Source of the DNA: Candidatus Poribacteria bacterium
GTDB lineage: Bacteria; Poribacteria; WGA-4E; WGA-3G
Assembly: GCA_022821965.1 (NCBI GenBank)
Contig: JAJECN010000041.1
Span: 1 to 64,000, forward strand
Reading direction: 5' to 3'
DNA length: 64,000 nt
Shown: positions 1 to 62,515 of the stretch, one piece after another
Layout: each line of letters begins with the position of its first letter
Position numbering within the stretch: the first letter of the stretch is position 1
Position numbers and translations under genes: made by a program
The notes under the pieces: generated by a model
What the model was told of the DNA's origin: nothing
Database searches by the model: none
Seen by the model: the letters and a program-made list of their open reading frames with translations, nothing else

Positions 1-3000
1 ATATGCTGCGGCTGCTGTTGGGTTAGAAACTGACACTTTTCTTCAAGAGATTCGCGAGAAGTCGAGTTTACAGAACTTGGGTTTGACGGGGCTAATTGAT
101 GGTGGAAACGTGCAGCGCGACACATGGACGGATCGGTTTGATGAAGTGATCGCTGCTTTGAATTCTCCTGACGATCTAAGTGTTGTGCCTCCTGTAATTG
201 TAGACCGGACCCAACCGACCCCAACAGGTGCTGTTTACATCCCGGATGCGAGTCTCCGCGCAGCGATTGAAGAGACACTCGGGAAAGCCCCCGGTGCTTC
301 AATAGCAACGGCGGATATGGCGAGATTGACGCGTCTTGAGGCAGATGAAAGAGGTATCCGCGATCTGACAGGTCTTGAGTATGCGATAAATCTGGAACGG
401 ATAGAGTTTCGTCGCAATGCGATATCCGATCTATCACCACTTGCAGGATTAACGCAACTGAATAACATCAAGTTGCGAGGAAACAGGATAACCGATGTAT
501 CACCATTGGCAGCCTTAACTGACGTGGACTGGCTGGGTCTTGAGGAGAACGCGATTACCGATTTATCCCCGTTGAGGGACCTAATAAAATTGAACGGAAT
601 CGGGATTTCAGGCAACCCGATATCCAATGTGTTGCCGCTTGCAAATCTTCTAAGCCTGGAACGGATAGACGCTTGGCGTACGCCTATTTCAGACTTCTCC
701 CCTTTAGCAAAGTTACCAAGATTGCGCTGGATAGAATTTGGAAACGATAGGTCGATATCGGCTATCCCGTCTCTGAAAGGATTAAAAGCACTGAGGCGAC
801 TGGAGATCAACGACTGCAACATCTCGGATCTCTCCGTGTTGGAGGAGTTAACACAACTGCGGTGGTTAGGCTTGGTTAACAATCTGATATCCGATGTGTC
901 TCCATTGAGTCATCTAAAAGACTTAGAACATCTGAATCTTGATGCTAATATCATATCAGATGTCGCACCCCTTGCGAAGCTAACGAAGTTGAAAGTGCTG
1001 TATCTTGAGAACAACACCATATCGGATGTGTCCCCTCTCAAGGACTTAATCAACTTGGAGCGACTTGATCTTCGTAATAATGCGATATCCGATTTTTCGC
1101 CTTTAGAAGGATTACCTGAAAAAACCTTCATTAGGATGGAGGGCAATCAGGGATTTCTTGTAAGAGGCTCAAGAAAAATAACAGGACCGTGGTTGTGGAT
1201 GATCGCATCGACTGGTGAAAGAGGCGGAGCAAATGCCGCCACTTCTGGGATAGATTTCCTGGCACAAATGAGTGACGGTGCTGTAACGGAGTTGAAGATC
1301 GCTACCAACGGTGCGACAGAGGGGAACCCTGTTGGGAACAAAGTATGGACAATTGGGGAACTATCTCCGATAGGCGGAAATAACATTAATGATATGGCGA
1401 ATGATACAGGCTTGGGATCAGGTGATATAAATAATCACGTTGCTTACGGTTCCGTTGCTTTGGATTCACCGCGAGAACAAAAAACAACAATGCTTGTCGG
1501 TAGTGATGATGCTGTCAAAGTCTGGCTCAACGGGGTTTTGGTTCACAACAATCCTATAGACCGCGGTGCTGATAATTACCAAGATCAGTTCCCTGTCACC
1601 TTGAAAAAGGGAACAAACACTTTGTTAATTGCTGTCTATGAGAGAGGCGGTGGTTGGAGCGGTTTTTTCGGGTTTGAAACTGGGACTGACTATACAATTA
1701 TACCCGCCGATGCCAGATTTTCGTTTTCCACAGAAACCACGCGTTTTGCCATTGGAGATACATTTACTCTCTATCTAAATACAAAAGGTGTTGACGATTT
1801 AGCAGGGTGGAAATCCGATATTATATTTGATCCAGCCGTGTTAAAAGCAAACAGCGTGAAGGACGGCAATTTTTTGACGCAGGAAGGGGGACGAACACAC
1901 TTTTTGAAAGGCGCGATTGATAACACAGAAGGGAGAATCACCGGTGTGGGTTCAGCGCGAATCTCCGAAGGCGGAGCGAGCGGCGAGGGCACACTGCTGT
2001 CCGTCACATTCACGGCGAAAGCTGCTGGAGAAACACGATTGGCATTGCGTGAGTTTGAAGCCGGTTCCAGTACTGGCAAAGCAATTCCATCTGCTTCGCC
2101 TGATATAATCATCACTGTTGCAGAACCATCCGCCTCGGATATGAGTGGTGTCAGATTTCCCCTTTCCACGGATACAACGTCTGTATACCTCGGCGATACC
2201 TTCACGCTTCGCCTCAGTGCAAGAGATGTTACCGATTTAGCGGGTTGGCAAGCTGATATTGCATTTGACCCTGCTGTGCTTGAAGCAGTTGAGGTAAGCG
2301 AAGGCGACTTTCTGAAGGCGGAGGGTGTAAGTGCCTTTTTCGCCCCTGGCACGATTGATAACACCACCGGTAAAATCACCAACGTAAGCACAGCACGGTT
2401 CAAGGGTGGGGTCAGCGGTACTGGTACGCTGCTATCGGTCATGTTTACGGCGAAGGCTGTCGGAGAAACACGAATAACGTTTAGCAGCTTTTATGCTGGC
2501 TCCAGCAGCACTGAGGTAATTCCTTCAGAGTCCCCCGAAATTGCCATTACTGTTGAAGACAGTGCGTTCCTCACTTCCGACGTAAACCGAGACGGTCAAG
2601 TGAACGTTCTCGATCTAATTCTGGTGGCACAGCTCTTGGGCTCCACTCCGTCTGGGGACAGCCGAGCTGATGTTAACGGTGACGGAACTATCAACGTTTT
2701 AGATCTAATCGTTGTGGCACAGCATTTGGGTGAGTCAACCGAGGGAGCTGCACCTTCCAACGTTATAGCAATAGAAAATTTAGAAATAGACCCGGCGATG
2801 GTCCAAGCATGGATAGCGCAGGCAGCGGCTAAAAATGACGGTTCGCTTGCTTTCCAACAAGGTATCGCGAACCTTCAACAACTTTTAGCTTCATTGCTTC
2901 CAGAAGATACGGCTTTACTTCCGAACTATCCCAACCCGTTCAATCCGGAGACGTGGATACCTTATGACCTTGCGGAATCCGCGGATGTCACGGTGCATAT

Positions 3001-3196
3001 CTATGCTATAAATGGTGTCTTAGTCCGGACGTTGGCGTTGGGTTACCAACCCGCGGGTGTCTACCAGTATCGGAGTCGCGCAGCGTATTGGGACGGCAAA
3101 AACGAGATGGGTGAGTCAGTCGCCAGCGGTGTCTATTTTTACACCCTCACCACAGGCGATTTTACTGCGACAAGGAAAATGTTGATAAGGAAGTGA
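1..3196 (+). CDS. Secreted LRR / cohesin x2 / dockerin protein with C-terminal sorting domain (5'-truncated by window)
   Basis: The reading frame is open to the left edge: codons can be read from base 2, so the true start lies outside and the TTG at 77 is not needed. Counting from the first visible codon, about twelve 22-residue internalin-type repeats (pattern ISDLSPL..L..L..L.L..N) cover roughly 100-373. A PA14/carbohydrate-binding-like region follows (385-570), then two cohesin-type beta domains (572-707 and 716-855), each with a LAGW.(S/A)DI.FDPAVL motif. A dockerin-type pair of Ca-binding loops (DVNRDGQVN and DVNGDGTIN) lies at 859-911. The last 90 residues contain YPNPFNPETWIPY and end in TRKMLIRK, typical of FlgD-Ig/type IX-like sorting domains of large secreted Poribacteria proteins. 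Probable role is extracellular adhesion or surface assembly (inference). Having cohesins and a dockerin on one chain would allow self-association. Confidence 0.85.
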   Translation, partial: YAAAAVGLETDTFLQEIREKSSLQNLGLTGLIDGGNVQRDTWTDRFDEVIAALNSPDDLSVVPPVIVDRTQPTPTGAVYIPDASLRAAIEETLGKAPGASIATADMARLTRLEADERGIRDLTGLEYAINLERIEFRRNAISDLSPLAGLTQLNNIKLRGNRITDVSPLAALTDVDWLGLEENAITDLSPLRDLIKLNGIGISGNPISNVLPLANLLSLERIDAWRTPISDFSPLAKLPRLRWIEFGNDRSISAIPSLKGLKALRRLEINDCNISDLSVLEELTQLRWLGLVNNLISDVSPLSHLKDLEHLNLDANIISDVAPLAKLTKLKVLYLENNTISDVSPLKDLINLERLDLRNNAISDFSPLEGLPEKTFIRMEGNQGFLVRGSRKITGPWLWMIASTGERGGANAATSGIDFLAQMSDGAVTELKIATNGATEGNPVGNKVWTIGELSPIGGNNINDMANDTGLGSGDINNHVAYGSVALDSPREQKTTMLVGSDDAVKVWLNGVLVHNNPIDRGADNYQDQFPVTLKKGTNTLLIAVYERGGGWSGFFGFETGTDYTIIPADARFSFSTETTRFAIGDTFTLYLNTKGVDDLAGWKSDIIFDPAVLKANSVKDGNFLTQEGGRTHFLKGAIDNTEGRITGVGSARISEGGASGEGTLLSVTFTAKAAGETRLALREFEAGSSTGKAIPSASPDIIITVAEPSASDMSGVRFPLSTDTTSVYLGDTFTLRLSARDVTDLAGWQADIAFDPAVLEAVEVSEGDFLKAEGVSAFFAPGTIDNTTGKITNVSTARFKGGVSGTGTLLSVMFTAKAVGETRITFSSFYAGSSSTEVIPSESPEIAITVEDSAFLTSDVNRDGQVNVLDLILVAQLLGSTPSGDSRADVNGDGTINVLDLIVVAQHLGESTEGAAPSNVIAIENLEIDPAMVQAWIAQAAAKNDGSLAFQQGIANLQQLLASLLPEDTALLPNYPNPFNPETWIPYDLAESADVTVHIYAINGVLVRTLALGYQPAGVYQYRSRAAYWDGKNEMGESVASGVYFYTLTTGDFTATRKMLIRK

Positions 3197-3351: not shown

Positions 3352-3729
3352 TTAAGTGGAACTATAGTAACCGAGAAAGGCGATGTCTCGTAAGCCACGG
3401 AAAAGTCGTCGCCGTATCCGAAAACGGCTCTTTGCCCATCCCTCTATATATCTCACTGCATCGGGTGATGGGAGTTGTGTAAAACGACACAACTTCCAAT
3501 TGAAAAGCAGCGGTCCCCATTGGAATAGATGCAATCCGAAACGGAGTTGCCGCTGCCACGTTTTGGGCAGTTGCTGGACGAACGCGTCAATCGCGATGAT
3601 CGGGGTATCCAGTGTGGTATCGTGTGAAATCCCTACCATATACGCACACACGGATTTAAGAATATCGTGTTCGGTTTCGGTGAAAAAGTAGGTCGCTTTT
3701 GGCGGTGCCCTAAACATCGGGTTGCTCAC
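3352..3729 (-). CDS. GMC-oxidoreductase small-subunit-like protein (gluconate 2-dehydrogenase subunit 3 type), orphan
   Basis: The 125-residue product starts with an FTETEHDIL segment and ends RRRLFRGLRDIAFLGYYSST. The GWAxSR...RxxFRxL...GYYS pattern is what precedes the FAD domain in long-chain alcohol oxidases, and also forms the separate small subunit of some GMC dehydrogenases. The GTG start at 3729 overlaps the end of the isomerase gene by 20 nt. An ATG at 3717 is an alternative start that also overlaps. A coupled isomerase/GMC sugar-oxidation operon is therefore likely, but no FAD-binding GMC subunit follows: the next gene downstream is the convergent LRR gene. The protein stops right after GYYS, so it may be a stand-alone subunit or the stump of a fused enzyme. 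Confidence 0.6.
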   Translation of the reverse strand: MSNPMFRAPPKATYFFTETEHDILKSVCAYMVGISHDTTLDTPIIAIDAFVQQLPKTWQRQLRFGLHLFQWGPLLFNWKLCRFTQLPSPDAVRYIEGWAKSRFRIRRRLFRGLRDIAFLGYYSST

Positions 3730-4633
3730 TTGATTCTGATAAAGATTCGCACAATTCTCGTGCTTCTATCACGGGTTCTGCTTCGCAGGGACGAATCTCT
3801 AATACTTTCAAAACATCTGACAGCAGCTGCTCAAAAATTTCATCCCATTCAAGATCACCGGTCCCTGGTGGGTGATACGCCTCAAGTCCTTTCAGATCGT
3901 GCAGGTTCACGCCGACGAGGTGTTCAGCATACTGCTCAAGCCATGTATCCGCCCAGCACATGCCGAGTTTCTCCTGTAGCGCAGCATGTCCTATGTCGTG
4001 CCAATAACGCATCGGGCTGCCATAAAACTGCTCAAAGAACAACCCAACTTCATCAAAATTCGGGATTTGGTAATAATTCGGACGATTCTCAATAGCGATA
4101 CAGAGTTCCATTCTCAAGGCGTATTCGTTTAATTCGTCAAGACTCCGTAACACAGCGTCTTGGTGTTTCGCCTCCTTACGCTTCCGCCACTCAGTGGCTT
4201 CCGCCACTTTTTGATCGAAGGCTTCAAACTCGCGCTCGCCATAATTGTATAGGTCTCTCATTAGATAGGACCTATCGTAGGTGTCAACTTCGCCAAGGTG
4301 AAGGACCACAATCGGTACCTCCAACTCAACAGCGAGTTCCATCGTTTGGAGGGTGCGGCGGATAGCCTCCTTCCGTTCGTCTGTATTGAGACTCGAAAGT
4401 AAAATTTTGTCTTTCTCTGCTTCTGCTTGTGACGTTCCGGGAAGGATGGGACAGAAGTTGTGGATCGAGCAGGGCGGGTTTTCCCGAAGGTACGGCTTGA
4501 GCTGCTCTATCTGATCCGGTGTAAGATGCCTACTGAGTTCAATTGATTCAAAGCCGAGTTCTTTGAGTTCATCAAACAGAACAGCACCGTCTTGCTGTTT
4601 GAAGGCATTCCACATTGTTGAAATCGCTAACAT
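3710..4633 (-). CDS. Sugar phosphate isomerase/epimerase family TIM barrel
   Basis: This is a 307-residue protein of the xylose-isomerase-like/AP-endonuclease-2 TIM-barrel superfamily, the group that usually isomerises or epimerises free or phosphorylated sugars or inositols. Visible signatures are the N-terminal strand MLAISTMWNAF, FDELKELGFESIELS, VVLHLGEVD, a metal-ligand-type CIAIENRPNYYQIPN, RYWHDIGHA and GVNLHDLKG. The start at 4633 is chosen because the longer frame would translate the repeat element as MQRHPERTARNVKK. The chosen ATG has AAGGAA upstream, followed by a TTAAAAAA spacer, inside the leader element. The stop overlaps the start of the GMC-subunit gene. The exact substrate cannot be told from sequence. 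Confidence 0.8.
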   Translation of the reverse strand: MLAISTMWNAFKQQDGAVLFDELKELGFESIELSRHLTPDQIEQLKPYLRENPPCSIHNFCPILPGTSQAEAEKDKILLSSLNTDERKEAIRRTLQTMELAVELEVPIVVLHLGEVDTYDRSYLMRDLYNYGEREFEAFDQKVAEATEWRKRKEAKHQDAVLRSLDELNEYALRMELCIAIENRPNYYQIPNFDEVGLFFEQFYGSPMRYWHDIGHAALQEKLGMCWADTWLEQYAEHLVGVNLHDLKGLEAYHPPGTGDLEWDEIFEQLLSDVLKVLEIRPCEAEPVIEARELCESLSESSEQPDV

Positions 4634-4723
4634 TTTTTTAACGTTCCTTGCGGTTCGTTCAGGGTGGCGTTGCAAGGACGCTCCGTTCCGTATATCCAGC
4701 CCGGCCCGTTGGTTGGGCTTACG
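4634..4723 (-). promoter_or_regulatory. Leader element with built-in Shine-Dalgarno and conserved stem-loop (copy A)
   Basis: Read on the minus strand, the element has a stem-loop at 4723-4689 (CGTA-AGCCC pairing with GGGCT...TACG), then a GC-rich stretch, then CGAACCGCAAGGAACG, then TTAAAAAA and the ATG of the isomerase. The same layout precedes ygfZ (48153-48245). The SD, the A/T spacer and the start codon are contiguous. Confidence 0.65.
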
Positions 4724-4778
4724 CTCTCGGGCTTATGCTACTTTAACGCTATGACCTTCCTTACAGTTCGTTTTTCTA

Positions 4779-4830
4779 ACGTTCCTTGCGGTTCGTTCAG
4801 GGTGGCGTTGCAAGGACGCTCCGTTCCGTC
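4779..4830 (-). repeat. Leader element, truncated copy B
   Basis: A second copy of the element in the same orientation as copy A. It runs from the AACGTTCCTTGCGG block through GGCGTTGCAAGGACGCTCCGTTCCGT and then stops before the stem-loop. It lies just downstream of the purN stop and is not next to a start codon. Confidence 0.6.
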
Positions 4831-4832
4831 AA

Positions 4833-5435
4833 CTATCGCACGATTACTTTTCGTCCTTTAATTTTTAGCTTACCCTGCGCGTACCATTTAATAACCTCAG
4901 GATAGAGTTTATGTTCTTCAACCTGAATTCGGTTATGTAAACTCTCCTCGTCGTCCGTATCCAAAATAGGGACAGCCGATTGCGCGATGATGGGACCCGA
5001 ATCCACATCTTCATCAACAAAATGAACGGTAACACCGGTGATTTTCACGCCATAAGCCAATGTATCAGCAACAGGATGCGCGCCCGGAAATGCTGGTAAG
5101 AGTGTGGGATGGACATTGATAATTCGGTTTTGATACTTGTGCACGAAGGGAGGTTGAAACAACTTCATAAAGCCCGCAAGGACAATTAACTCAACTCCGT
5201 AGTGTTCGACGAGCTTTGAAATTTCTGCGTCAAAGTCTTGGCGATTCTCAAAATCTTGGGTTCTCACAACGTGGGTCGATATACCTGCCCGTTTTGCACG
5301 TGTGAGCGCGTAAGCTTTCCGGCGGTCGCTGATTACAACGGCGATATCAATACCGCTTGTTTCGTCTTGATGTAGCTGCTCAATCAGGGTTTGCAGGTTG
5401 GTTCCACTCCCTGAAACGAGGACTGCGATCTTCAA
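4833..5435 (-). CDS. purN: Phosphoribosylglycinamide formyltransferase
   Basis: The enzyme transfers a formyl group from 10-formyl-THF to GAR, the third step of purine synthesis, in the cytosol. The 200-residue product has the usual length. It shows the phosphate-binding VLVSGSGTNLQ near the N-terminus, VISDRRKAYAL, the LAGFMKL strand, the catalytic block NVHPTLLPAFPGAHPV (the catalytic His and Asn environment) and GVTVHFVDEDVDSGPII. The start is a TTG at 5435, giving MKIAVLVSG, with AAGGA seven bases upstream. Upstream in-frame codons would run into the vWA gene, which ends 10 nt before this start, so the two are probably cotranscribed. It stands alone: no other pur gene is in the window. 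Confidence 0.93.
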   Translation of the reverse strand: MKIAVLVSGSGTNLQTLIEQLHQDETSGIDIAVVISDRRKAYALTRAKRAGISTHVVRTQDFENRQDFDAEISKLVEHYGVELIVLAGFMKLFQPPFVHKYQNRIINVHPTLLPAFPGAHPVADTLAYGVKITGVTVHFVDEDVDSGPIIAQSAVPILDTDDEESLHNRIQVEEHKLYPEVIKWYAQGKLKIKGRKVIVR

Positions 5436-7342: not shown

Positions 7343-7948
7343 TTACTTCCGCCGAAGGTAAGTTGTCAGTAAACGTTTAGGTGGTTCGTGCTGAATAACC
7401 TCAAAAGAGATTAACTTTTCACCATCCAATTCGTATGATTTTTTCAGCGCGTGCACCGACTGTCCAAACCTATCATTAGACGGTTGATAGAGTGTTGCTC
7501 CCACCATCGTAAAAACAGCGAAGGTCAATACAAATATGTAAATTGGGCTGCGTGTCCGAATATTGTAGCGAAGTTTGTAAGCCAGTGTTGAGGCGTGTTG
7601 CACCCATCCAAACGATGCTTCAATGAATTGCGTGGCACGGGACCAAAGCGACGCATGCTTCTTCTCATATTCTTTTGCGTCCGACACGCGCGTCATGACA
7701 CTACTTAAGAAACCATCAGAGACTTCGATTTCGCCACCGTGACGTAGGAAGTTGTCGGTCCGCTGCAATGACCGGACTTGATTGGAACAGAAAACACACT
7801 GTTTGAGATGGTGTCGGATGAGATGGCGTTTCCATACTGGTAATTCCTTATCAATGTAAGCGGAGAGCTCATCTGGACTTACGATTTGCGCTTCACATTC
7901 CGAACCGCGCGTATATGGGAATTCGGTCGCTTTATATTTTTTCATCAA
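7343..7948 (-). CDS. Anti-sigma factor with zf-HC2 domain, membrane-anchored
   Basis: The N-terminal 75 residues carry the anti-sigma zinc-finger pattern LSAYIDKELP...HHLKQCVFCSNQV (His-x3-Cys-x2-Cys), which in this family clamps an ECF sigma factor at the membrane. A coiled linker follows, then one transmembrane helix at about 140-158 (IYIFVLTFAVFTMVGATLY) and a short periplasmic tail of about 40 residues. The gene overlaps the end of the upstream ECF sigma gene by 17 nt, the usual arrangement for a cotranscribed sigma/anti-sigma pair. The periplasmic part is too short to show a known sensor domain, so the signal is unknown. Confidence 0.88.
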   Translation of the reverse strand: MMKKYKATEFPYTRGSECEAQIVSPDELSAYIDKELPVWKRHLIRHHLKQCVFCSNQVRSLQRTDNFLRHGGEIEVSDGFLSSVMTRVSDAKEYEKKHASLWSRATQFIEASFGWVQHASTLAYKLRYNIRTRSPIYIFVLTFAVFTMVGATLYQPSNDRFGQSVHALKKSYELDGEKLISFEVIQHEPPKRLLTTYLRRK

Positions 7949-8534
7949 TACTTTCCTTCCCTATTCCGGCTTTGATGAGCAGCTTTCTCATTTTCTGTCG
8001 CGCTCGATGAATCAATGCTTTTACAGCACCTATGGAGCAGCCAAGAATTTCTGCAACCTCTTCATACCGCAAATCTTGATATGTGACGAGCGTTAGTGCC
8101 ACGCGTTGATTTTCTGGTAACTGTGCCAATGCTTTGCGGATAATTTGTCTCTGTTCTTTTTTCTCTAAAAGTACGTCCGGCAGATAACGGGTATCCCGCA
8201 TGATGTCGGCATGGTAAATATCTTCACCTTCTTCAACCAAGTCTTCCAAAAAACAGGTATTTCGGCGTGTGCGGTTCCGAATCTCGTTTCGGCACAAATT
8301 AGTGGCGATCGTATAGAGCCAACTTTTGAAAGATGCCGTTGGTTCATAACGGTTCGCACTTTTGAAGACCCGTAGGAATGTTTCTTGGGAGAGGTCCTCT
8401 GCTCGTTGATAATCGTCGATAGAACGGTGAATGTAGTTAATCAAAGGGTTCTGATAGCGCCGCACCAACAACTCGAAGGCACTCATATCCCCTTTACCAC
8501 ATTTCACCATCAAATCTTCATCTGAAACAAACAT
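7932..8534 (-). CDS. ECF-family RNA polymerase sigma factor
   Basis: The 200-residue product has sigma region 2 at about 12-80 (FELLVRRYQNPLINYIHRS, AEDLSQETFLRVF, SFKSWLYTIATNLCRNEIR) and region 4 at about 135-190 (LPENQRVALTLVTYQDLRYEEVAEILG...GAVKALIHRARQKMR). This is the two-domain layout of sigma-E-like ECF factors. The ATG at 8534 is preceded by the leader element (CCGCAAGGAACATTAAAAAAA). The gene overlaps its zinc-finger anti-sigma partner. Likely targets are not visible. The nearby minus-strand vWA and TPR genes could be part of the same regulon, which is inference. Confidence 0.92.
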   Translation of the reverse strand: MFVSDEDLMVKCGKGDMSAFELLVRRYQNPLINYIHRSIDDYQRAEDLSQETFLRVFKSANRYEPTASFKSWLYTIATNLCRNEIRNRTRRNTCFLEDLVEEGEDIYHADIMRDTRYLPDVLLEKKEQRQIIRKALAQLPENQRVALTLVTYQDLRYEEVAEILGCSIGAVKALIHRARQKMRKLLIKAGIGKESIDEKI

Positions 8535-8639
8535 TTTTTTAATGTTCCTTGCGGTTCGTTGAGGCGTGATTTACGACGATGTACCTCTCCGTAGACTCAG
8601 CCCATTCGTTTATAGTAACGGGTGGAACCGCTGTTTGGT
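8535..8639 (-). promoter_or_regulatory. Leader element with built-in Shine-Dalgarno (copy F)
   Basis: This fills the gap between the TPR gene stop and the sigma gene start. On the minus strand it ends CGAACCGCAAGGAACATTAAAAAAA directly at the ATG. Its distal part contains a CCACCCGTTACT block, shared with copy D at 48280-48389 (GTAACGGGTGG on the other strand). Confidence 0.6.
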
Positions 8640-13550: not shown

Positions 13551-13880
13551 ATGGCTCCAGAAACAAGGACACCATCTGTATCACTGATCCATGTGGCACG
13601 GACTGACGCAGCCCGCAGTGTTTCTAAATGGCGTTGGATAGCATTTGGCGCGGTTCTCAGTGTTCTGCCCGTAATCAATATTGTGCTTCTCGGTATAAGT
13701 ACCCTTGTTATGGGCACCTTAGCACCCAAAATTGATCTGTCCACGCCGAAACGCTTGACGTTCTATTTCCAAAATCCCGCGTGTTACACAGCGGAATATC
13801 GGCGGACAGCAAAGCGGTTACGGTGTATTCGGACATTTTATGGATGGCTCGCCGGTGTCATTATTTTCAGTCTCTTTTAA
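13551..13880 (+). CDS. Possible small membrane protein, unrecognised
   Basis: A 109-codon frame with codon choice like its neighbours. It encodes one long hydrophobic segment (WIAFGAVLSVLPVINIVLLGISTLVMG), a polar basic middle (RRTAKRLRCIRTFY), and a short hydrophobic C-terminus ending VIIFSLF. A two-helix inner-membrane protein is plausible. No good SD precedes the ATG at 13551; a GTG near 13587 is another option. No family was recognised, and it may be spurious. Confidence 0.4.
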   Translation: MAPETRTPSVSLIHVARTDAARSVSKWRWIAFGAVLSVLPVINIVLLGISTLVMGTLAPKIDLSTPKRLTFYFQNPACYTAEYRRTAKRLRCIRTFYGWLAGVIIFSLF

Positions 13881-13904
13881 GATTTTTTAACTATGGGTCC
13901 TCGT

Positions 13905-13960
13905 TTCGGCAAAACGGGTCTTATCGAACCGCAAGGAAAATTAAAAAAAGGAACGAGCAA
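13905..13960 (+). promoter_or_regulatory. Leader element (copy G) before DUF202 gene
   Basis: The sequence CGAACCGCAAGGAAAATTAAAAAAA is followed by a second SD-like AGGAACG and the ATG at 13961. It has the same AAGGAA plus TTAAAAA layout as the other copies, without the CGTAAGCCC stem-loop. Confidence 0.55.
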
Positions 13961-14287
13961 ATGTCAGATAAACCAACGCCTTACATAGGACTGGAAGACC
14001 AACTTATCCTGCGAGACCATCTCGCTGCGGATCGGACTATCCTCGCGAATGAGCGGACCTTCCTCGCTTATATCCGTACGGCACTGACGCTATTCGTCGC
14101 AGGTTTATCTTTCGTCCATCTCAAAATCTTTGAATCACACATTTTTGAGGCGATCGGTATTATCTTCATCTTGCTCGGCATTGCGACTTTCTTCGTTGGA
14201 CTCTTCAGATATAAACGGATGCAAGCACTGATCCACAAGATTAAGCAGGAAGAATTAAAAGAATTGGGAGAAAAAAACGCATCATGA
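13961..14287 (+). CDS. DUF202 (YidH-type) inner-membrane protein
   Basis: The 108-residue protein has the DUF202 signature LRDHLAADRTILANERTFLAYIRTALTLF, where the ANERTFLAY(I/L)RT motif leads into the first helix, then a second helix (FEAIGIIFILLGIATFFVGLF) and a basic tail. The family is widespread but functionally undefined. The start is set by AGGAACG eight bases before the ATG. Its last codons overlap the start of the MDR dehydrogenase in an ATGA overlap, so the two are translationally coupled. Confidence 0.9.
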   Translation: MSDKPTPYIGLEDQLILRDHLAADRTILANERTFLAYIRTALTLFVAGLSFVHLKIFESHIFEAIGIIFILLGIATFFVGLFRYKRMQALIHKIKQEELKELGEKNAS

Positions 14288-24567: not shown

Positions 24568-25947
24568 ATGATAGATTGGCGCGATATGTTTACGGCAGCG
24601 TTTAACACAAAACTAAATTGTGCCTTAATAATTCAATGCGGCATTCTCCTCGTTGCTTTCGTAATTGGGTGCCAAGATGATACAGCAGTCCTGAAAAAGA
24701 GCGAGGAACTCTTGAACGCCGGAACCCCACAAGATGCCGTGGTGGAACTGGAGGCTTTTATCGAAACAGCACCCGAGGAACCGAAGGCACGGATGTTGCT
24801 TGGGAAAGCCTACAATGACTTGGGACGTTACAATGATGCCGTTGTCGAGTTACGAAAAGCCTCACAACTCTACGCTGCACAACCGGAAGAACGGATTACA
24901 GCGCGGCTTGAATTGGCGCGCACCTATCTAAGGTTTGGGGACAGAGACTCTGCCTTTCGTGTGCTGCGGCTTGTTCAACGGAGTACACCAGATCCCAATG
25001 TCCTGCGCAAAATTATCGAACTTGTTGGCGACAGTTATCACGCAAAGAGGCTGACCCGTGGCGATTCAGATAACTATTCCCCTACCTTCTCACCAGACGG
25101 CACACAAATTGCCTTTGCATCGTTCCGACTCGACAACGGCGAAATCTATTTAATGGACCTAAACGGACGCATCCAACGCCGTGTAACATTCACAACAGAT
25201 TTCAACGATAGTTCGCCAGCATTCCTCACGGTTCCAAATTATCTGTTTTACAGCAGCGAACCGAAGTCATCTCGTGAAGTTCAAGTTGTCATTCAAAGTA
25301 GTGGTTCCACGCCGATCTATGCTGGATTCTATGTGACGCATATTCATAGTAAAATAACGCGATGTGTTTTTCCAGTAAGTTTTGGTGCTCGCGTGCCTCG
25401 TACAGCACCTGCCAGAGATTTGGTCGTTTATGAATCCAATGCAGACGGAAATTTGGAATTATACCTTCTCGATTTGGAGGGGACTGATCTCACACAACTT
25501 ACCCCGGAGAAGATCCAACACAAACGCATCACCTTTAACGAAACTGATGACGGAAGCCCAACATTCTTTCCCGACGGAAAACGCATTATGTTTGTCTCAT
25601 CGCGAAATGAAGTGAATCAGCTTTACACTATAGGCATTGATGGGCAAAACGAGAAGCACTTCAATCCAAATCGCTACGATTGTTACAACCCCAGTGTGTC
25701 CCCTGACGGAAAAACAATCGCTTATGTCTCCGCGAGAGATGGCGATTGGGAAATTTATCTAATTGACGCAGATGGCAAAAATGAGCGGCGGATAACCAAC
25801 GACATCGGTAGATCTATTCAACCGACCTTTTCGCCTGACGGACGGCACCTTGCGTTTGTTTCCGATAGAAGCGATACTTTTCATATCTACCTAATGTCTC
25901 TGAACGAACCTGTTACACGTGAAGATTTAGTTAAACGTTTACAGTAG
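24568..25947 (+). CDS. TPR plus TolB-like beta-propeller lipoprotein
   Basis: The 459-residue protein has a lipoprotein-type signal (CGILLVAFVIGC, Cys about residue 36). Three TPR-like repeats (KSEELLNAGTPQDAVVEL, ARMLLGKAYNDLGRYNDAVVEL, ARLELARTYLRFGDRDSAFRVL) are followed by a WD40-like/PD40 propeller with TolB-type blades: YSPTFSPDGTQIAFASFR, GSPTFFPDGKRIMFVSSR, YNPSVSPDGKTIAYVSAR and IQPTFSPDGRHLAFVSDR. It is probably periplasmic and attached to a membrane, where such proteins scaffold envelope complexes. No SD is evident before the ATG at 24568. Confidence 0.85.
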   Translation: MIDWRDMFTAAFNTKLNCALIIQCGILLVAFVIGCQDDTAVLKKSEELLNAGTPQDAVVELEAFIETAPEEPKARMLLGKAYNDLGRYNDAVVELRKASQLYAAQPEERITARLELARTYLRFGDRDSAFRVLRLVQRSTPDPNVLRKIIELVGDSYHAKRLTRGDSDNYSPTFSPDGTQIAFASFRLDNGEIYLMDLNGRIQRRVTFTTDFNDSSPAFLTVPNYLFYSSEPKSSREVQVVIQSSGSTPIYAGFYVTHIHSKITRCVFPVSFGARVPRTAPARDLVVYESNADGNLELYLLDLEGTDLTQLTPEKIQHKRITFNETDDGSPTFFPDGKRIMFVSSRNEVNQLYTIGIDGQNEKHFNPNRYDCYNPSVSPDGKTIAYVSARDGDWEIYLIDADGKNERRITNDIGRSIQPTFSPDGRHLAFVSDRSDTFHIYLMSLNEPVTREDLVKRLQ

Positions 25948-25974
25948 GGGCGAGGTAACCTCGTCCCTACGCTC
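25943..25974. repeat. REP-like palindrome after TolB-like gene
   Basis: GTAGGGGCGAGGTAACCTCG continuing TCCCTACG forms an almost perfect palindrome that includes the stop codon. A near-identical copy lies at 42594-42620. It could act as a 3' hairpin but lacks a U-tract. Confidence 0.6.
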
Positions 25975-29203: not shown

Positions 29204-29303
29204 TTATCAGTTGTCGGTGCGGTTTTTCTGCGAAAAACCTTTCGGTTGTCGGAAAGAGGTTTTCGTTTAACAACACCCTCTTGTAACTGATAACTGACAA
29301 CCA
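29203..29303. repeat. Heptamer-built inverted-repeat element
   Basis: It fills the gap between the transglutaminase stop and the BatA-like ATG. The left end is GTTATCAGTTGTCGG and the right end is AACTGATAACTGACAACC. A CACCCTCTTGTAACTGATAA block is shared with the element ending at 42672. A GCGGTTTTTCTGCG/GAAAAACC hairpin lies inside. Confidence 0.65.
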
Positions 29304-29305
29304 TT

Positions 29306-31534
29306 ATGGCATTTCTCAACCCGCTCTTCCTCTTCGGTCTCCTCGCCGCTGGCATCCCACTGATTATCCATCTCTGGAACCGTCGCCGCGTTGTAACAAT
29401 AGATTTCAGCAGTCTGATGTTCCTTACAGCGGCACATCGCGAAAACGCCCGCCGATTCCAACTCCGACAACTTCTCATTTTGTTCTTGCGGATGCTAATT
29501 GTTGCGCTCATTGCGCTTGCCTTAGCACGTCCCTTTCTGACGCTTGGACTGCCGATCGCGTCTGTGCGAGCGAAAACCGATCTCGTTATCGTTTTAGATA
29601 ACTCCTACAGTATGGCGTATCAAGACATCGATGGCATTAGGTTTGAGAAGGCGAAAACTTTGGCAACTGATATCCTCAACACACTACGGCACGGTGACAG
29701 TGCCGCTTTTATATTGATGTCAGACATCCCAAAACCTGTTTTTCGGCAACTCACACCGGATGTTGAGAGTGTCACTGAAACCGTTAAGGATACGGCGGTC
29801 TCTTACCGCACCACAAACGTTCAACCCAGCATTGAACTCGCCCACGAAATCCTCGCTGAGTCAGAGCAACTTAACAAAGAAATCTATTTGATTTCAGACT
29901 TCGCCCAAAACGGGTGGCAGAACTGGAGTCGGCTCCCGAATCGTTCCGGTGCTCGTATTTCCCTGATTCCGGTTGCCAGAGGTGAAGCACATAACACAAG
30001 TATTAAAGAAATTCGTCCTTCTAATCAACTAATAGGTGTAAATTTACCACTCCAATTGAATGTGACGACTGTGAATCATTCAATAGCGCCCTTGGAGGAA
30101 GATATACTAACGTTGTTCATTGGAGGCGAAAAACAAAAATCTATGAGTTTTTCTGTCGGAGCAAACGAATCACTGAATACGACTTTAATACATAACTTTT
30201 CTACACCCGGCACGCATATCGGCTACTTTACATTAACAGAGGATCGGCTCAACATTGATAATCGGCGTTATTTCGCCTTAAATGTTCTCGGTGAAGTGCG
30301 TGTGCTCTGTGTAGGAGAAGAAACGGAATACCTAACATTAGCACTAAACCCACATAATGTTTCTGATCTGCTCTTACCAACTGGAGATCCAGTTTCTAAA
30401 AATCAAAAAAATAACAGCGGTGTACTGATTTTACCAACGCAATGCACACTCATCGAGTTTGAGACCTTCCCCTTGCAAGACTATGATGTCATCATTCTCG
30501 CGGATATGCCAGAAATCTCTCGCCGGACGAACGCGCAACTCCAAGAATTCATCCGTCACGGCAAAAGTATCATTGCCTTCGTAAGCAGCCACAGCGATTC
30601 AAAGAGTTACAACGAACGCAGTAATGTTTGGTTGCCTGCCCAGCTCGGTAACACACTAACATGGACACCGCCACAGCGGGTTCACACGTATCAGGAAGAG
30701 CACCCTGTCTTTGATGTGTTTTCAAGCGACGGATTCTCTACGCAATACGCACCACATTTTTACAACGGCGTGACGTTATACCCTTTGTCGGAATCCAATG
30801 TTATTGCCCGTTTCGGAGACGATACACCCTTTCTCGTTGAACGAAGTCAAGGCACAAGTATTGTGCTACTCTATAATTGCGGGCTCCTTACACAACAGGC
30901 GGCGACATCTACCTCCACCACATCTTATACAAATGACCTACTTGTTAATCCGTATTTCCTTCCAATGCTCCAACAGAGCGTGCTTTATGCAGCGACAGCC
31001 AGTAACAATCTTTTAGCGTGGGAAGGACATATCGGCGACACCTATGCAGCAAGTTATCCGCAAAGTGCCGGTGGGAAAGCATCTATTCGCCTAAAGAGTA
31101 CAGTTGGCGAATGGAACGATGATACCTCAAAACCTGATGCGTCCGAGATAGACGATAGCATAGTGGTGCCAATTGCTGAAGATGGTACACTACGATTCCA
31201 AGGCACAGAACGTCCCGGTATCTATCAGGTTGAGGTGCAAACGCAAAGCAGGATCCAACGAGACTTCTTTGCAGCTAATGTTGACACCACCGAAGGCGAC
31301 TTAACAGAGATTCCATTGGAACACGCTGCAACGCGAGTCGGTGCCGAAACAGCAACAGATCAGGAAACCGAGGGAGTAGCGATAGAAGCCGACGCTTACA
31401 ACATCAATCGACACGGTAGGGAAATTTGGGGTGAATTGCTGATCTTGGTTGTTTGCCTTATGCTTCTTGAAAGTTTTCTCTCGAATCGCGAAGGATACGG
31501 GCGGGGAAACCCTGCCCCTGCGGGTGAAAAATAA
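29306..31534 (+). CDS. BatA-like membrane protein with vWA domain
   Basis: The 742-residue protein begins with the aerotolerance-regulator N-terminal domain: AFLNPLFLFGLLAAGIPLIIHLWNRRR, then QLRQLLILFLRMLIVALIALALARP. These are two helices with the basic loop typical of BatA. A vWA domain follows at about 90-225 (LVIVLDNSYSMAYQD, MIDAS DNSYS). A long extracytoplasmic region with a glutamine-amidotransferase-like/alpha-beta segment (YDVIILADMPEISRRTNAQLQEFIRHGKSIIAFV) follows, and a C-terminal helix (LLILVVCLMLLESFLS) ends the chain. BatA-type proteins are linked to MoxR chaperones, but no MoxR is nearby. The start directly follows the repeat element and has no SD. The stop overlaps the Omp85 ATG (TAATG). 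Confidence 0.85.
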   Translation: MAFLNPLFLFGLLAAGIPLIIHLWNRRRVVTIDFSSLMFLTAAHRENARRFQLRQLLILFLRMLIVALIALALARPFLTLGLPIASVRAKTDLVIVLDNSYSMAYQDIDGIRFEKAKTLATDILNTLRHGDSAAFILMSDIPKPVFRQLTPDVESVTETVKDTAVSYRTTNVQPSIELAHEILAESEQLNKEIYLISDFAQNGWQNWSRLPNRSGARISLIPVARGEAHNTSIKEIRPSNQLIGVNLPLQLNVTTVNHSIAPLEEDILTLFIGGEKQKSMSFSVGANESLNTTLIHNFSTPGTHIGYFTLTEDRLNIDNRRYFALNVLGEVRVLCVGEETEYLTLALNPHNVSDLLLPTGDPVSKNQKNNSGVLILPTQCTLIEFETFPLQDYDVIILADMPEISRRTNAQLQEFIRHGKSIIAFVSSHSDSKSYNERSNVWLPAQLGNTLTWTPPQRVHTYQEEHPVFDVFSSDGFSTQYAPHFYNGVTLYPLSESNVIARFGDDTPFLVERSQGTSIVLLYNCGLLTQQAATSTSTTSYTNDLLVNPYFLPMLQQSVLYAATASNNLLAWEGHIGDTYAASYPQSAGGKASIRLKSTVGEWNDDTSKPDASEIDDSIVVPIAEDGTLRFQGTERPGIYQVEVQTQSRIQRDFFAANVDTTEGDLTEIPLEHAATRVGAETATDQETEGVAIEADAYNINRHGREIWGELLILVVCLMLLESFLSNREGYGRGNPAPAGEK

Positions 31535-39031: not shown

Positions 39032-39171
39032 TGTAGCGCGAACTTTTAGTTTGCGCACCCTGGACACAAACTAAAAGTTTGTGCTACAGTTTAAATCTGG
39101 GTAAGACAGAGATTCTGAACTGGTCTATCACGCCCTGGACACAAACTAAAAGTTTGTGCTACAGTTTAAAT
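39032..39171. repeat. 39-bp exact direct repeat with internal palindrome, plus one inverted copy
   Basis: The copies at 39058-39096 and 39133-39171 are identical (CCCTGGACACAAACTAAAAG, then TTTGTGCTACAGTTTAAAT). GTAGCGCGAACTTTTAGTTT at 39033 is a related copy in inverse orientation, so the first two form a large stem. Confidence 0.8.
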
Positions 39172-42341: not shown

Positions 42342-42675
42342 GTTTATTGGTTATCGTTTTTCAGTTTTCGGTTATCAGAAGAATGGTTTTCAGTTTTAAA
42401 AGTCGTCAGTTGTCGGGGCAGGTTTTCTCATGAAGATTAAGAATTTAATCGGGTAATGTAGGTGTTCATTGTCTGAAGCAGGATTTACAAGATTCGAGGA
42501 TTTTCAGGATAATAGAACCGTCTTGATTGAGAACTGTTGTTTATAGAATTACCCAAATATTTTCTTAAACTTCATCCGAAAAACCTTCAGTCGTAGGGGC
42601 GAGGTAACCTCGCCCTTACAGAGACTTCGTTTAACGGCACCCTCTTGTAACTGATAACTGACAACCGATAACTAC
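42342..42675. other. Repeat-filled gap between RACE and corrinoid protein genes
   Basis: No gene. Heptamer ends lie at 42345-42420 and 42640-42672, with the REP-like palindrome GTAGGGGCGAGGTAACCTCG at 42594-42620. A CAGGATTTACAAGATTCGAGGATTTTC repeat near 42480-42507 relates inversely to the one near 12540. Confidence 0.65.
42594..42620. repeat. REP-like palindrome
   Basis: GTAGGGGCGAGGTAACCTCG followed by CCCTTAC. It differs from the copy at 25943-25974 at only a couple of positions. Confidence 0.6.
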
Positions 42676-47051: not shown

Positions 47052-48152
47052 TTATGCTGAAAATGGCAGTCGTACGACTGTGGCATCAACGCGTCCGTCT
47101 GAGGTCTCAACTTGGACGCGACTGCCCGCTTCTGTGACTGCAATGCGGACGTATCCCAAGGCGATCTCTTTTGCGAGTGTTGGGGCAAAAGTGGAACTCG
47201 TAACCCAACCAACCTCCTTGTCTCCATCGAAAACCTTTGCGTTTGGCTGAAGTTTGCGTATTGGTTTCCCATCTATCTCAAGACCGCGTAGCAGACGATT
47301 TGGGTGTCCGCGATATTTCATGCGTGCGACAATCTCTTGCCCGATGTAACATCCCTTCTCAAAGTCGATAGTGTGTTCCAATTCAGCCTCAAGCGGGATA
47401 ACAGCATCGGTTAATTCCGTTCCGTATCTCGGCACACCTGCTTCAATACGGAGCGACTCAAGGGCGTTCCAACCAATCGGTTGAACGTTAAAACGCACCC
47501 CTTCAGCCATCAACGTTTCCCAAAGCGATATTAATGCCTCGGCAGCGGTATAAAGCGTCCAACCGATTTCGCCAGTGTTATCTGTTCTCACACAGACAAT
47601 TGTGTGTTTAAAGTCTCCATCTGCTTCACGAACACAATTATGCCGTTCAGGTAAAGCAGCAAGCCCGTTCAGACCCAGTACAGACTGAACAAGGTCCGCT
47701 GACTTTGGACCGTGAACAGCAATTGCCCCAGTTTCAGCGGTTACATCGGAAAGTTCAACGTCATCAGCGATGATGTATTTATCCAATTCGTTGAAAAGGC
47801 TCTCTGTGTTCTCAGAAGCGGTGTCGATACTGATCGTATCTTCAAGAACCGTGATATTCAAATCGGCGATAATTTTGCCACGATGCGTTAAGAGCATCGC
47901 GTAAGTGCCTTGTCCGGTTGTGAGACTTTCAACGTCATTGGAGATGATGCGGTGTAGAAATTTTGCCCTGTCTTCACCCGTTAACTGATGTCTGCCTCGA
48001 TAGGACACGTCAGTAATACCGACGTTGTTCCTGACAGCGAGGTGTTCAGAGACAGCATCGGTGAATTGCGTGGGGATATTCCAATCCAGATGCTTTTCGG
48101 CGAAAGTTGCACCGAGTTGTTCGTGAATGGGATAGAGTGGTGTTGTTTTCAT
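47052..48152 (-). CDS. ygfZ: YgfZ/GcvT-type folate-binding protein
   Basis: The 366-residue protein has the aminomethyltransferase/YgfZ fold: VSYRGRHQLTGEDRAKFLHRIISNDVESL, GQGTYAMLLTHRGKIIADLNI, AIAVHGPKSADLV and the YgfZ signature FEKGCYIGQEIVARMKYRG (KGC[FY]xGQE, with the redox Cys), plus RRLRG-like RLLRGLEIDG and VGWVTSSTFAPTLAKEIALGYV. YgfZ/IBA57 proteins assist folate-dependent repair or assembly of some Fe-S enzymes. The protein is longer than a typical YgfZ, and its overall length is close to GcvT, but no other glycine-cleavage gene is nearby. The start follows CCGCAAGGAAATTTAAAAATAC, a leader element. Confidence 0.85.
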   Translation of the reverse strand: MKTTPLYPIHEQLGATFAEKHLDWNIPTQFTDAVSEHLAVRNNVGITDVSYRGRHQLTGEDRAKFLHRIISNDVESLTTGQGTYAMLLTHRGKIIADLNITVLEDTISIDTASENTESLFNELDKYIIADDVELSDVTAETGAIAVHGPKSADLVQSVLGLNGLAALPERHNCVREADGDFKHTIVCVRTDNTGEIGWTLYTAAEALISLWETLMAEGVRFNVQPIGWNALESLRIEAGVPRYGTELTDAVIPLEAELEHTIDFEKGCYIGQEIVARMKYRGHPNRLLRGLEIDGKPIRKLQPNAKVFDGDKEVGWVTSSTFAPTLAKEIALGYVRIAVTEAGSRVQVETSDGRVDATVVRLPFSA

Positions 48153-48245
48153 GTATTTTTAAATTTCCTTGCGGTTCGTTCAGTTGGGTTGGATGAACGG
48201 CGTTGCTCTGCGTATATCCAGCCCTGCCCGCTGGTTGGGCTTACG
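48153..48245 (-). promoter_or_regulatory. Leader element with built-in Shine-Dalgarno and stem-loop (copy C)
   Basis: On the minus strand CGTAAGCCC...GGGCTGGATATACG (48245-48211) is followed by GCGTTCATCC and AACCCAACTGAACGAACCGC, then AAGGAAATTTAAAAATAC and the ygfZ ATG. It is nearly the same layout as copy A at 4634-4723. Confidence 0.7.
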
Positions 48246-48279
48246 TTTCTAATTTTTCTGTTAGTTTCCTCTGTTTTTA

Positions 48280-48470
48280 ATGTTCCTTGCGGTTCGTTCA
48301 GTTGGGTTGGATGAACGGTGTTGCTCTACGTATATCCAGCCCTGCCCGCCCCTTCCCAGTAACGGGTGGGGACCCCGGTTGGGCTTACGTTTTCTACTTT
48401 TCTGTTAGTCTCCTCTATTTTTGGTTTTCTTTGCGATTTGTTCAGGTGAACCGATTGGTCTCCTCTTTGA
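48280..48470 (-). repeat. Two more tandem copies of the leader element (D and degenerate E)
   Basis: Copy D (48280-48389) repeats the SD block and stem-loop, with an extra CCACCCGTTACTGGGAAGGG insertion inside the loop. Copy E (48420-48470) is degenerate (GGTTTTCTTTGCGATTTGTTCAGG). Together with copy C they form a three-fold tandem in the gap between ygfZ and the Omp85 gene. No gene lies here. Confidence 0.6.
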
Positions 48471-51400
48471 CTAAAAGATGCGACCCAAGCGCAAGATGAT
48501 TATTGGACTTCGTAAAGAGAAGGATGAATCGAGTCCTTCTGCTACTTCAACCCCAAGACTCCACGGCGAGTCGGTAGCGAACGGATCTGCAAAAATGGAA
48601 CCTCCGATGCCGATTGATGTTTTGAGTCGCGTCATAAAACCCTCAAAATCGGAAAAGGGTACCTCATCATACCACCACACGCTGCCCGTATCCAAGAAAC
48701 AACTGAGTGACCATCCAAGCACAACATCTTGGTCGCTGAGAATTGTCTCTTTAATAAGACGATACTCAAGGTTAAGTAGGAGTCGGCTATCTCCAGCAAA
48801 CACGTTAAAATCGTGCCCGCGCAGGGTGTTACCACCTCCAAGGTGAAGGAGTCGTTGTCGGGGCAATGGCGCGTCAGAAAAATCTCCCGCAACACGAATA
48901 TTTAAGTGGTGTGGACCAGATAAAGGCGTGTAGCGTGCCACCTCAAACCGATAGAAATTGAAGGCGTAATCACCTCCGAAACTTTGTCCTGCTATCTCAA
49001 TCGCGAATTGACCACGCCACCCACGCCGAGTTCGCTCATTGGCAGAAAACCGCGTGTGGAAATGCCGTGTGCTTATGGATCTGTGGTCACGGGTATCAAA
49101 CCCAAAAACGAGGGCGAGATTTCTCAGTTGTCCACGATCAATCCGAGCATTGCCTCGCTTGAGTCGATTCCGGTTTAAGTAACTCCAATCTGTTGATTTA
49201 GAGAGGTTATCGTGTTGTTCCCCTGTAAATTCCAACTTGAGATAACTCCATTGCGTAGGCGCGTAGGTGATCCATCCTTGAGCCCCCTGACGTTGGTAAT
49301 AATCTTGAAGTGCGGCACCGTAATAGGTGGCACTCAGGGTGGCATCACCGTGATGTAGATAAACATTAGAACTGACATCGGTAAGTTTATAGAAACTCCC
49401 ACCCAGTTTCAGAAGTTGTCGCTTAGAGAATCCCTGCTCAAAACCAATTTGATAGTTCCATATTTTGCTCGAAAATCCACCGCTTATTGAACCGAAAACC
49501 TGTTCTGTGCCTGTGAGTTGTGTGGCGAGTGTCCCCCCCGCACCGAGCATTAACCCGTGAACACGATTGAATTGAACGATCGGAAAACCGCCGTGTCGCG
49601 CGAAGGGCTGTTCCTCAATGTCAATAATCATGACATTTTTTCCACCTTCACGTTGAACACGCCAATTCCGAACCGATTTGAAATGTTCGCTGTTCTCACT
49701 GAGTTCCTTACGCATGCGGTTTATCTTCGATTGACCCAGGGAGCGGTGATAAACATCCGGGGTTTGGGAACCTTGTTCTCCAGCACCCCCGATTTTCAGA
49801 TCGAGTGCTGATAACAGTTCCGCCTCCGAAGTTCGAGTATTCCCTGTAAAACGAACTTCGTGCAATGTCCCTTCGTCAATGTTAAATTCAAGGACATCTT
49901 CGACAAATTGATGCGTAACCGTGGCGAATTCATACCCACGATTTGAATAGAAGCCAGCAATTAATTGTTCCTTCAGCTTAACGATTGAAACAGCGAGATA
50001 GCCGGATTTTAACTGGAACCAATCCGCAATAAATTGCGATGGAAAACTTCTATTCCCTTCAATCTTAATGTGCTGAGCAAAAAACACAGGGGCTTCCGTA
50101 ACTCGGATATGTAAATTGACGCTTGGCTGGAAGGCTGGAAGGCTGGAAGGCTGAGTCCGCTCTCTTCCACTTTTCTTCTCTTCCATTCCGGTTTCTTGCT
50201 GATGGCTGACGGGTTCTTCACCAACATCGACCTGCTGAGTTTCCAGACGTGCATCCTGACACCAGTCCCGTTCCCGTAATTCTGCGATTAGCCAAGAAAG
50301 TTGTGGAATAGTGATAATATCTTCAGGTTGAACGGGTAAGAATTTTTGGATAACCTCTGTTGGAATTTTGGTGTTACCTTTAATTTCAATAGCAGCAACC
50401 TTGAATTTCGTCTCGGGGGCAAAGTCTTCAGAGACGAGTGGTGTCGTTACGAATTCCAAGACCCCCATCGCTGGACCGTAGCGTCCCGAAAGCGCGCCCA
50501 TATACTCCTGCGGCGAATGTGGCCACCATGGGTGCTCGTCATCATAAATTGGCAGCCAATAACTATATTCTCTGGTCGTATTAGGTATCAGGCTCTTCAT
50601 GTTACGAGTGTGCATCTTACGGTGGATGTTAAAAAGCCACTGGCTTTCAAAAGAGGTGTCAGACTGCGAATCCATTTTAGGAGGAGACTCCAAGGTTTTA
50701 CGTGGGAGAGCGATTTCAAGGCTCCAAAAAGTGGTATGAATTTGGGTGGCAACTTCTATTTCTGAACTCCAGGCGCGATCAGCGTTGAACAATGTTTGCA
50801 TCGCTTTCCGATCTAAAGTAAGTTGGACATCACGAGGCGCGAACCGAAAATTGGGTTCCCCAGGTGTATCAACCCGCTGATCAAAATACGCACCAATTGG
50901 GTTGATGACAAGGTGATAATAGAGATCAGTTTTCGGATTCGGATCAATCAGGATTTCAATACACTCATCCTCCCAAATCGGTGAGTTGTGCTGAGTTTGT
51001 GAAAGATATAGGAGATAGAAGTCAAACACGGATGCCTTTACACCGATATAAAGATTCTCTGCATCCCACATTAAGAAGGTTTCAGTCGGATTTTTGGGAG
51101 CCCCGGTGCCATTTGGATTTTGGAGTGGCGCGAGCGCACCAGCTGTTTGCCACGCGATTTCAGATAAATTACCATCAATAACGGGCGGTTGTGCTATTTG
51201 CGGAACAGGTTGAGCAACATCCGCGAACGGATTCGGTTCGGCATCGGTAAGTGTGTCTTTGTCACTCGGTGGACTCGGCAGCAGTGAAATCAAATCGGTG
51301 GCTTTCAACTGCAACAGGGGGCCACCATCGTTAACAATGGTTAACCCCGTCTCATCGTCAATTTGTGCTGGCAAATTGACAACGATTTGCTGTTTCTCAC

Positions 51401-62477: not shown

Positions 62478-62515
62478 CGTTATCACGACGTTTAACCGCA
62501 AGGAAAAATTAAAAG
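62478..62515 (+). promoter_or_regulatory. Leader element (copy H) before isomerase gene
   Basis: The sequence TTTAACCGCAAGGAAAAATT then AAAAG sits directly against the ATG at 62516. It has the SD block and A/T spacer of the family without the distal stem-loop. Confidence 0.55.

Follow-up and report, generated by a model that had tools for sequence, protein, structure and literature searches.

A genus-specific dispersed leader repeat carrying a predicted Shine-Dalgarno sequence at gene starts of sponge Poribacteria

REP elements are short hairpin-bearing repeats that are mobilised by RAYT (TnpA-REP) transposases and are not known to carry a Shine-Dalgarno (SD) sequence, and the Rickettsia palindromic elements become part of coding genes. 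In Streptococcus pneumoniae, the BOX, RUP and SPRITE repeats are enriched between genes that are transcribed convergently, and terminal inverted repeats as well as target-site duplications are present in BOX and RUP (PMC3049150). The closest published phenomenon to the one described here is that of the TAACTGA direct repeats, which lie at start codons of marine Beggiatoaceae and of some Cyanobacteria and Bacteroidetes (MacGregor 2015, PMC4679880). Many dispersed copies of these, mostly in forward orientation, precede the starts of unrelated genes, some of them essential, and the mechanism of their spread is unknown (PMC4679880).

In the 64,000-nucleotide stretch of DNA analysed here (the window, which is contig C38 of a 62-contig, 5.69 Mb Candidatus Poribacteria genome), an initial annotation had described a recurrent leader motif before the starts at 4633, 8534, 13961, 48152 and 62516, and we found the motif at all five places. 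The element to which it belongs has a hairpin (P1) in common with REP elements, and many P1 copies begin GTAG, but the element has an SD sequence and none lies near the four Y1_Tnp genes of this genome. Its apparent coding use at ruvC resembles that of the Rickettsia palindromic elements, although the element typically lies in the untranslated leader and coding is exceptional. Like BOX, RUP and SPRITE, it is a short non-coding dispersed repeat with tens to more than 100 copies per genome and a predicted structure, and their range, largely a single species and one close relative (PMC3049150), is comparably narrow to its own; unlike them, it is fixed in sense orientation at start codons and has no visible terminal inverted repeats. 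It shares with the TAACTGA repeats a dispersed distribution directly upstream of the start codons of unrelated genes, but those consist of 7 nt repeated in tandem and have little SD character, whereas the element is a single ~100-nt unit that includes both a covarying hairpin and an SD of its own; TAACTGA is absent from the element consensus, and such repeats occur separately at other sites. We call it a member of the "small dispersed repeats", set apart by carrying and substituting a ribosome-binding site. A search of the open literature turned up no account of this element or of repeats in Poribacteria.

Eight matches to the motif with at most one mismatch were present in the window, compared with 1.44 expected in shuffled sequence, and none of 100 shuffles reached eight. 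A full element (85.2 bits) occupies 4631..4724 on the minus strand before a TIM-barrel gene at 3710-4633 (start 4633; PF01261), with P1 at ~4690-4724, the core GAACCGCAAGGAA at 4644-4656 and the ATG 10 nt past the core. Upstream of it on the same strand is a tandem copy without P1 at 4769..4843 (core 4782-4794; 41 bits), to which no start codon is attached. Also on the minus strand, an element with P1 degenerate or absent at 8532..8621 (core 8545-8557; 54.4 bits) precedes an ECF sigma gene at 7932-8534 (Sigma70_r2/r4), and a full element at 48152..48246 (core 48165-48177; 88.1 bits), where the model match overruns the start codon by a few bases, precedes a GCV_T (YgfZ/GcvT-like) gene at 47052-48152. 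The latter is followed upstream, again on the minus strand, by a tandem copy with an enlarged P1 loop at 48270..48378 (core 48283-48295; 57.8 bits) and, beyond these two newer copies, by a decayed oldest copy (CACCTGAACAAATCGCAAAGAAAACC) at 48414..48448 (16.5 bits), which matches the hairpin-less leaders of genomes G008 and G017. On the plus strand, an element without P1 at 13876..13951 (core 13926-13938; 40.6 bits) precedes a DUF202 gene, and between it and the ATG at 13961 lies an apparent native SD, AAAGGAACGAGCAA-ATG. A plus-strand remnant consisting of core and TTAAAA with no hairpin, at 62494..62515, stands directly before a TIM-barrel gene at 62516-63358; its covariance-model score is weak (21 bits, E 0.04 to 0.17), and its orthologs in close relatives are full elements. 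The list first made had lacked the two upstream tandem copies, at 4769-4843 and 48270-48378, and the decayed copy near 48414-48448. A distal stem-loop, CGTAAGCCC...GGGCT...TACG, had been thought common to several of the listed copies, and it was found before 4633 and before 48152, was missing before 13961 and 62516, and was unrecognisable before 8534; the tandem copy at 48270 has it with a longer loop. Other repeats in the window are a 66-nt (22-codon) repeat at 386-1114 within the plus-strand ORF 77-3196, which looks like a leucine-rich-repeat protein, a dispersed palindrome, GTAGGGGCGAGGTAACCTCGTCCCTAC, at 25944-25970, 31495-31521 and 42593-42619, a tandem CCCTGGACACAAACTAAAAGTTTGTGCTACAGTTTAAAT at 39058-39171, and TAACTGA-type repeats at 29262-29302 and similar places.

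Outside the window the element proved far more numerous than first described. The exact GAACCGCAAGGAA occurred 94 times in the 5.69 Mb genome and its reversed control 0 times, the pattern CCGCAAGG-N3-6-TTAAAA occurred 120 times with 0 for the control, and a covariance model built from 59 copies gave at least 149 matches; 166 distinct copies were analysed. The exact motif was present in all 35 congeners tested, at 1 to 183 per genome, and the covariance model gave from 1 to at least 70 matches per congener. Genomes from other genera of the order and class, 24 in number, had 0 or 1 exact motif each, and the model found no match in 23 of 24 genomes outside the genus. When the motif with TTAAAA was sought across 84,980 species, the matches listed were almost only Candidatus Poribacteria records, with one Paludibacteraceae match that looks like chance. 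The covariance-model search of the whole genome and its relatives, which the initial annotation had proposed, returned many copies confined almost wholly to the genus, and the amplification is genus-specific, in uncultured sponge Poribacteria.

The unit is ~100 nt long and its left boundary is sharp, with conservation beginning ~6 nt before CGTA; the ends read approximately AAARNNCGTAG on the left and TTAAAA(A) on the right. From 5' to 3', it consists of the P1 hairpin, a variable spacer that contains a purine-rich GGAGAGGAACGT, CCTNACC, GAACCGCAAGGAA, two bases, TTAAAA(A) and usually the ATG. P1 is built from an outer CGTA/TACG pairing, a GGATA bulge, a stem of 4-5 pairs and a 2-bp tip with a triloop, and there are two main loop types. 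Within the 3' module, CCTNACCGAACCGCAAGGAA-N2-TTAAAA, the AAGGA matches the 16S anti-Shine-Dalgarno, and the 8-mer CCGCAAGG is near-invariant. A second subtype, seen in L296, L315, L325, L335, L344 and others, differs at two sites, which change together: GGATTTAAGAA stands downstream of P1 and CGTTNTTTAACCGCAAGG upstream of the SD, in place of GGATATACGGA and CCTNACCGAACCGCAAGG. The P1 loop holds other nested palindromes, such as GGTTTTTGCTTGGGTGTTTCC and AATTATGCCTTAAATGGCATAATT (L016, L031, L056, L236, L260), and at nuoK of G032 (L250) a palindrome is nested in the GCAA loop of the core; hairpin loops behave as if they were insertion hot spots. In the nuoK leader of G017 (L364:14476-15063), five tandem copies lie ~121 nt apart, three of them with equal score, which suggests a recent amplification.

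Enrichment near start codons, one of the checks that had been proposed, was strong. An ATG opening an ORF of at least 60 aa lay within 16 nt of 62 of the 94 exact copies, compared with 6.1% of random positions, and the mode of the spacing was exactly 10 nt; in other Poribacteria, 91 of 144 copies were start-linked likewise, 70 of them at exactly 10 nt. The 166 analysed copies comprised 131 that were start-linked, 18 upstream members of tandem pairs and 17 orphans, several of which do precede short or non-ATG reading frames. At L064:1987-2108, the frame of an FAD-dependent oxidoreductase (DAO) opens at ATC at the usual element spacing, with no ATG there. TTAAAA had survived in a larger share of start-linked copies, 82% compared with 57% of the rest (p=0.006) and, in the replicate set, 94% compared with 74% (p=0.004). 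The difference in core integrity between these classes was not significant in either of two sets (p=0.17, 0.45). Selection for SD function alone would not obviously demand so exact a spacing as 10 nt.

The 3' end of 16S rRNA was read from five congeners, as none was found in the window's own draft assembly, and is GGATCACCTCCTTT in all five. AAGGA pairs with ACCTCCTTT of this end and is therefore a 5-bp SD, at a suitable distance from the ATG. Background genes rarely had CCGCAAGG (1 of 131) or TTAAAA near the start (3 of 131), native leaders of the same genome also use AAGGA, and at ~8 copies a native-looking SD persists downstream of the element. The sequences support the original suggestion that a recurrent leader brings what would be its own SD to unrelated genes, and the two outcomes named beforehand as refuting it, no preference for start codons and no compensatory changes in the stem, were both contradicted.

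That the served genes are unrelated was borne out on 30 proteins, which belong to many families with no common theme. Besides the types found in the window (sugar-isomerase-like TIM barrels, ECF sigma factors, DUF202 and GCV_T), they include Sua5, thiamine pyrophosphokinase, PheS, CarA, a class-I glutamine amidotransferase (HisH-like), NuoK, MazG, RuvC, ABC-2 permeases, an ABC ATPase, a 2-oxoacid dehydrogenase acyltransferase, a sulfatase, a glycosyltransferase, PhyH dioxygenases, Gfo/Idh oxidoreductases, a DegT aminotransferase, a short-chain dehydrogenase and others. The core genes pheS, carA, nuoK and ruvC are among them, and several are essential in most bacteria. The proposal that the element couples the translation of these scattered genes gained no support, as no common function, csrA or Rfam family was found. 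A search for csrA found none, and a CsrA regulon was rejected on that ground; no Rfam covariance model matched over the window, or over the tandem array at 48140-48480 at E≤1, and a known RNA family was likewise rejected.

The initial annotation had raised the possibility of a structured RNA and had named compensatory changes in the stem as the check. These changes are many: P1 contained 121 double-change cells in the 59-copy alignment, compared with 40 when shuffled and 7-35 in slid controls, and standard pairs made up 89-96% of the top pairs (7-25, 9-23, 8-24, 13-19) across 249 non-redundant copies, compared with 50-67% expected. P1 covaries strongly, but the inner stem had no RNA-strand bias, with G·U (36) and A·C (31) about equally rare, the mean stability of eight folded copies was no better than that of shuffled sequence, and hairpin-less copies still precede genes, so that a structured RNA is supported only in part. 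SD accessibility in the element equalled that in native AAGGA leaders (0.52 vs 0.52), and on this ground exposure or hiding of the SD by the fold was rejected. Given the G·U and A·C counts, the shuffled-like folding and the native-like accessibility, P1 pairing could be kept up in the DNA, by an extruded hairpin or through replaced palindromes, just as it could in RNA. When a repeat is dispersed, a covarying hairpin alone does not prove a regulatory RNA. A long-range helix, P2 (model positions 34-69, 35-68, 36-67), was weak and confounded with subtype, and we make no claim for it. Nor do we claim a GNRA hairpin at the core (CC-GCAA-GG), which is plausible and has a compensated pair in 3 of 249 non-redundant copies, because this stretch scarcely varies and shares bases with the SD.

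Orthologous genes of close relatives differ in whether they have the element. Among ~30 congeners, the nuoK and GCV_T leaders have the element, none, or a TAACTGA-type repeat at the same ATG, and there are at least eight polymorphic sites among G000 (the window's own genome), G001, G008 and G017, though their coding DNA is mostly 85-96% identical. The clearest gain is at a PhyH-like gene, where the native leader, with GAAGGATATAGGACA-ATG at its end, can be aligned across G000, G001 and G017; in G008 an element array supplants ~105 nt of native leader, which is lost, and is joined directly to the ATG. Divergence between orthologous copies, in pairs that are not independent, was lowest in the core (2%), higher in the tail (9%), in the part preceding the core (10%) and in P1 (19%), and highest in the spacer (31%). 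TAACTGA-type repeats without an SD abut starts at L233, L240 and L243 (nuoK), in genes bearing the element elsewhere, and likewise at L280, L283, L285, L287, L289 and L290 (the GCV_T gene).

At ruvC (L376-L404 compared; own copy L019:1433-1526), orthologs without the element (G005, G013, G014) have a TTG start, (TTG)IILGIDPG, and in those with the element the junction lies just past the former TTG codon. An in-frame ATG occurs inside the element in 21 of 27 readable orthologs and gives an extension of ~13 residues, for example MQNPPHPTARNIKK-IILGIDPG. Here, then, the element has taken the place of a start codon and has apparently become coding. The window's own genome has ACG at that codon and no in-frame ATG, GTG or TTG, and ruvC of G009 and G033 is also without a usual start. 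ATA had been suspected from the spacing as the start in the own genome, a candidate weakened by the orthologs' in-frame ATG upstream within the element.

The element had also been described as mobile or selected. Presence and absence at orthologs in close relatives speaks for spread, but neither a transposase nor a terminal inverted repeat was identified for the element, nor a target-site duplication, for which the clear gain in G008 offered no clean insertion, and movement is therefore inferred from distribution. Terminal inverted repeats, a feature of DDE-type MITEs, are absent in that the left and right ends are not inverted repeats of each other. At the four Y1_Tnp (PF01797) genes of the genome (L347-L350), no element was found at E≤0.05, and a RAYT-mobilised REP was rejected for lack of a link to these genes; the foot of P1 reads GTAG in about two thirds of P1-bearing copies, and many read GTAAG. 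That gain removed native sequence up to the ATG, and replacement reaching the start codon is what a swap of leaders by recombination, or an insertion accompanied by a deletion, would produce.

We consider it probable that the element is a genus-specific dispersed ~100-nt leader cassette that multiplies, settles at gene starts and supplies its own SD, a reading built on the discrete boundaries, dispersion, start linkage, P1 pairing, SD match, gain and turnover, and at least one loss of a native leader that were found by computation. Such a cassette would consist of a short covarying hairpin, P1, at its 5' side and a complete translation-initiation module, CCTNACCGAACCGCAAGGAA-N2-TTAAAA, at its 3' side, with the AAGGA SD and A-rich spacer placed to abut the ATG. 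Because the SD lies at its very end, an insertion that destroyed the native SD would be tolerated and the element would take over initiation, so that copies would survive mainly at start codons. Tandem duplication may follow, in which the copy nearest the ATG would keep its function and TTAAAA would decay in the ones upstream. The 17 of 166 copies that are not beside a called start count against the cassette, as do the failure to identify a transposase, target-site duplications or terminal inverted repeats, the lack of a significant difference in core integrity, the native-looking SD left at ~8 copies and the unexpectedly exact spacing.

Some of the same evidence could be read in other ways. 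P1 covariation, the near-invariance of CCGCAAGG beyond SD needs and the tight geometry to the ATG would suit a trans-regulated RNA regulon, in which the hairpin and SD leader act as a cis-regulatory RNA, either in the manner of a riboswitch or through a bound protein or sRNA, to control more than 100 genes jointly, and the copies were acquired for that control. We think this unlikely, since the served genes lack a common function, the leaders turn over fast between close species, hairpin-less copies still serve genes, neither csrA nor an Rfam match was found, stability is like that of shuffled sequence, and G·U is not in excess over A·C. A quite improbable reading is that of an inert REP- or MITE-like repeat in short intergenic gaps, whose position before the ATG reflects the shortness of the gap and whose SD match is incidental. 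It would account for the 17 orphans and for the other repeats (TAACTGA type, nested palindromes) that fill the same gaps in orthologs, but most copies are in sense orientation with exact 10-nt spacing, TTAAAA near the start and CCGCAAGG occur in only 3 and 1, respectively, of the 131 background genes, and the core is strongly conserved between orthologous copies; moreover, clear gains remove the native SD, so something must replace it. Finally, the use of AAGGA by native leaders in the same genome might suggest that there is no element, and that strong ribosome-binding sites are alike by convergence or chance. This is scarcely credible for a common unit that spans ~100 nt with sharp ends; such 100-nt homology contradicts it, as do the reversed-pattern control of 0, the tandem duplications, and the presence and absence at orthologs.

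Beyond the leader cassette itself, we tentatively entertain a stronger proposal, that it may be a selfish mobile translation-initiation cassette, with a hairpin and a complete ribosome-binding site as its only payload, which spreads by taking over gene starts and exchanges native leaders for its own, and that more than 100 unrelated genes, core genes included, might now depend on it and share a 5' UTR. Small dispersed repeats are usually credited with supplying promoters, terminators or signals for mRNA stability, or else regarded as inert. If true, a repeat that carries a ribosome-binding site at more than 100 genes would represent a new route for selfish DNA to rewire expression at the level of translation, and would open to test the question of how a genome copes when its initiation signals are replaced en masse.
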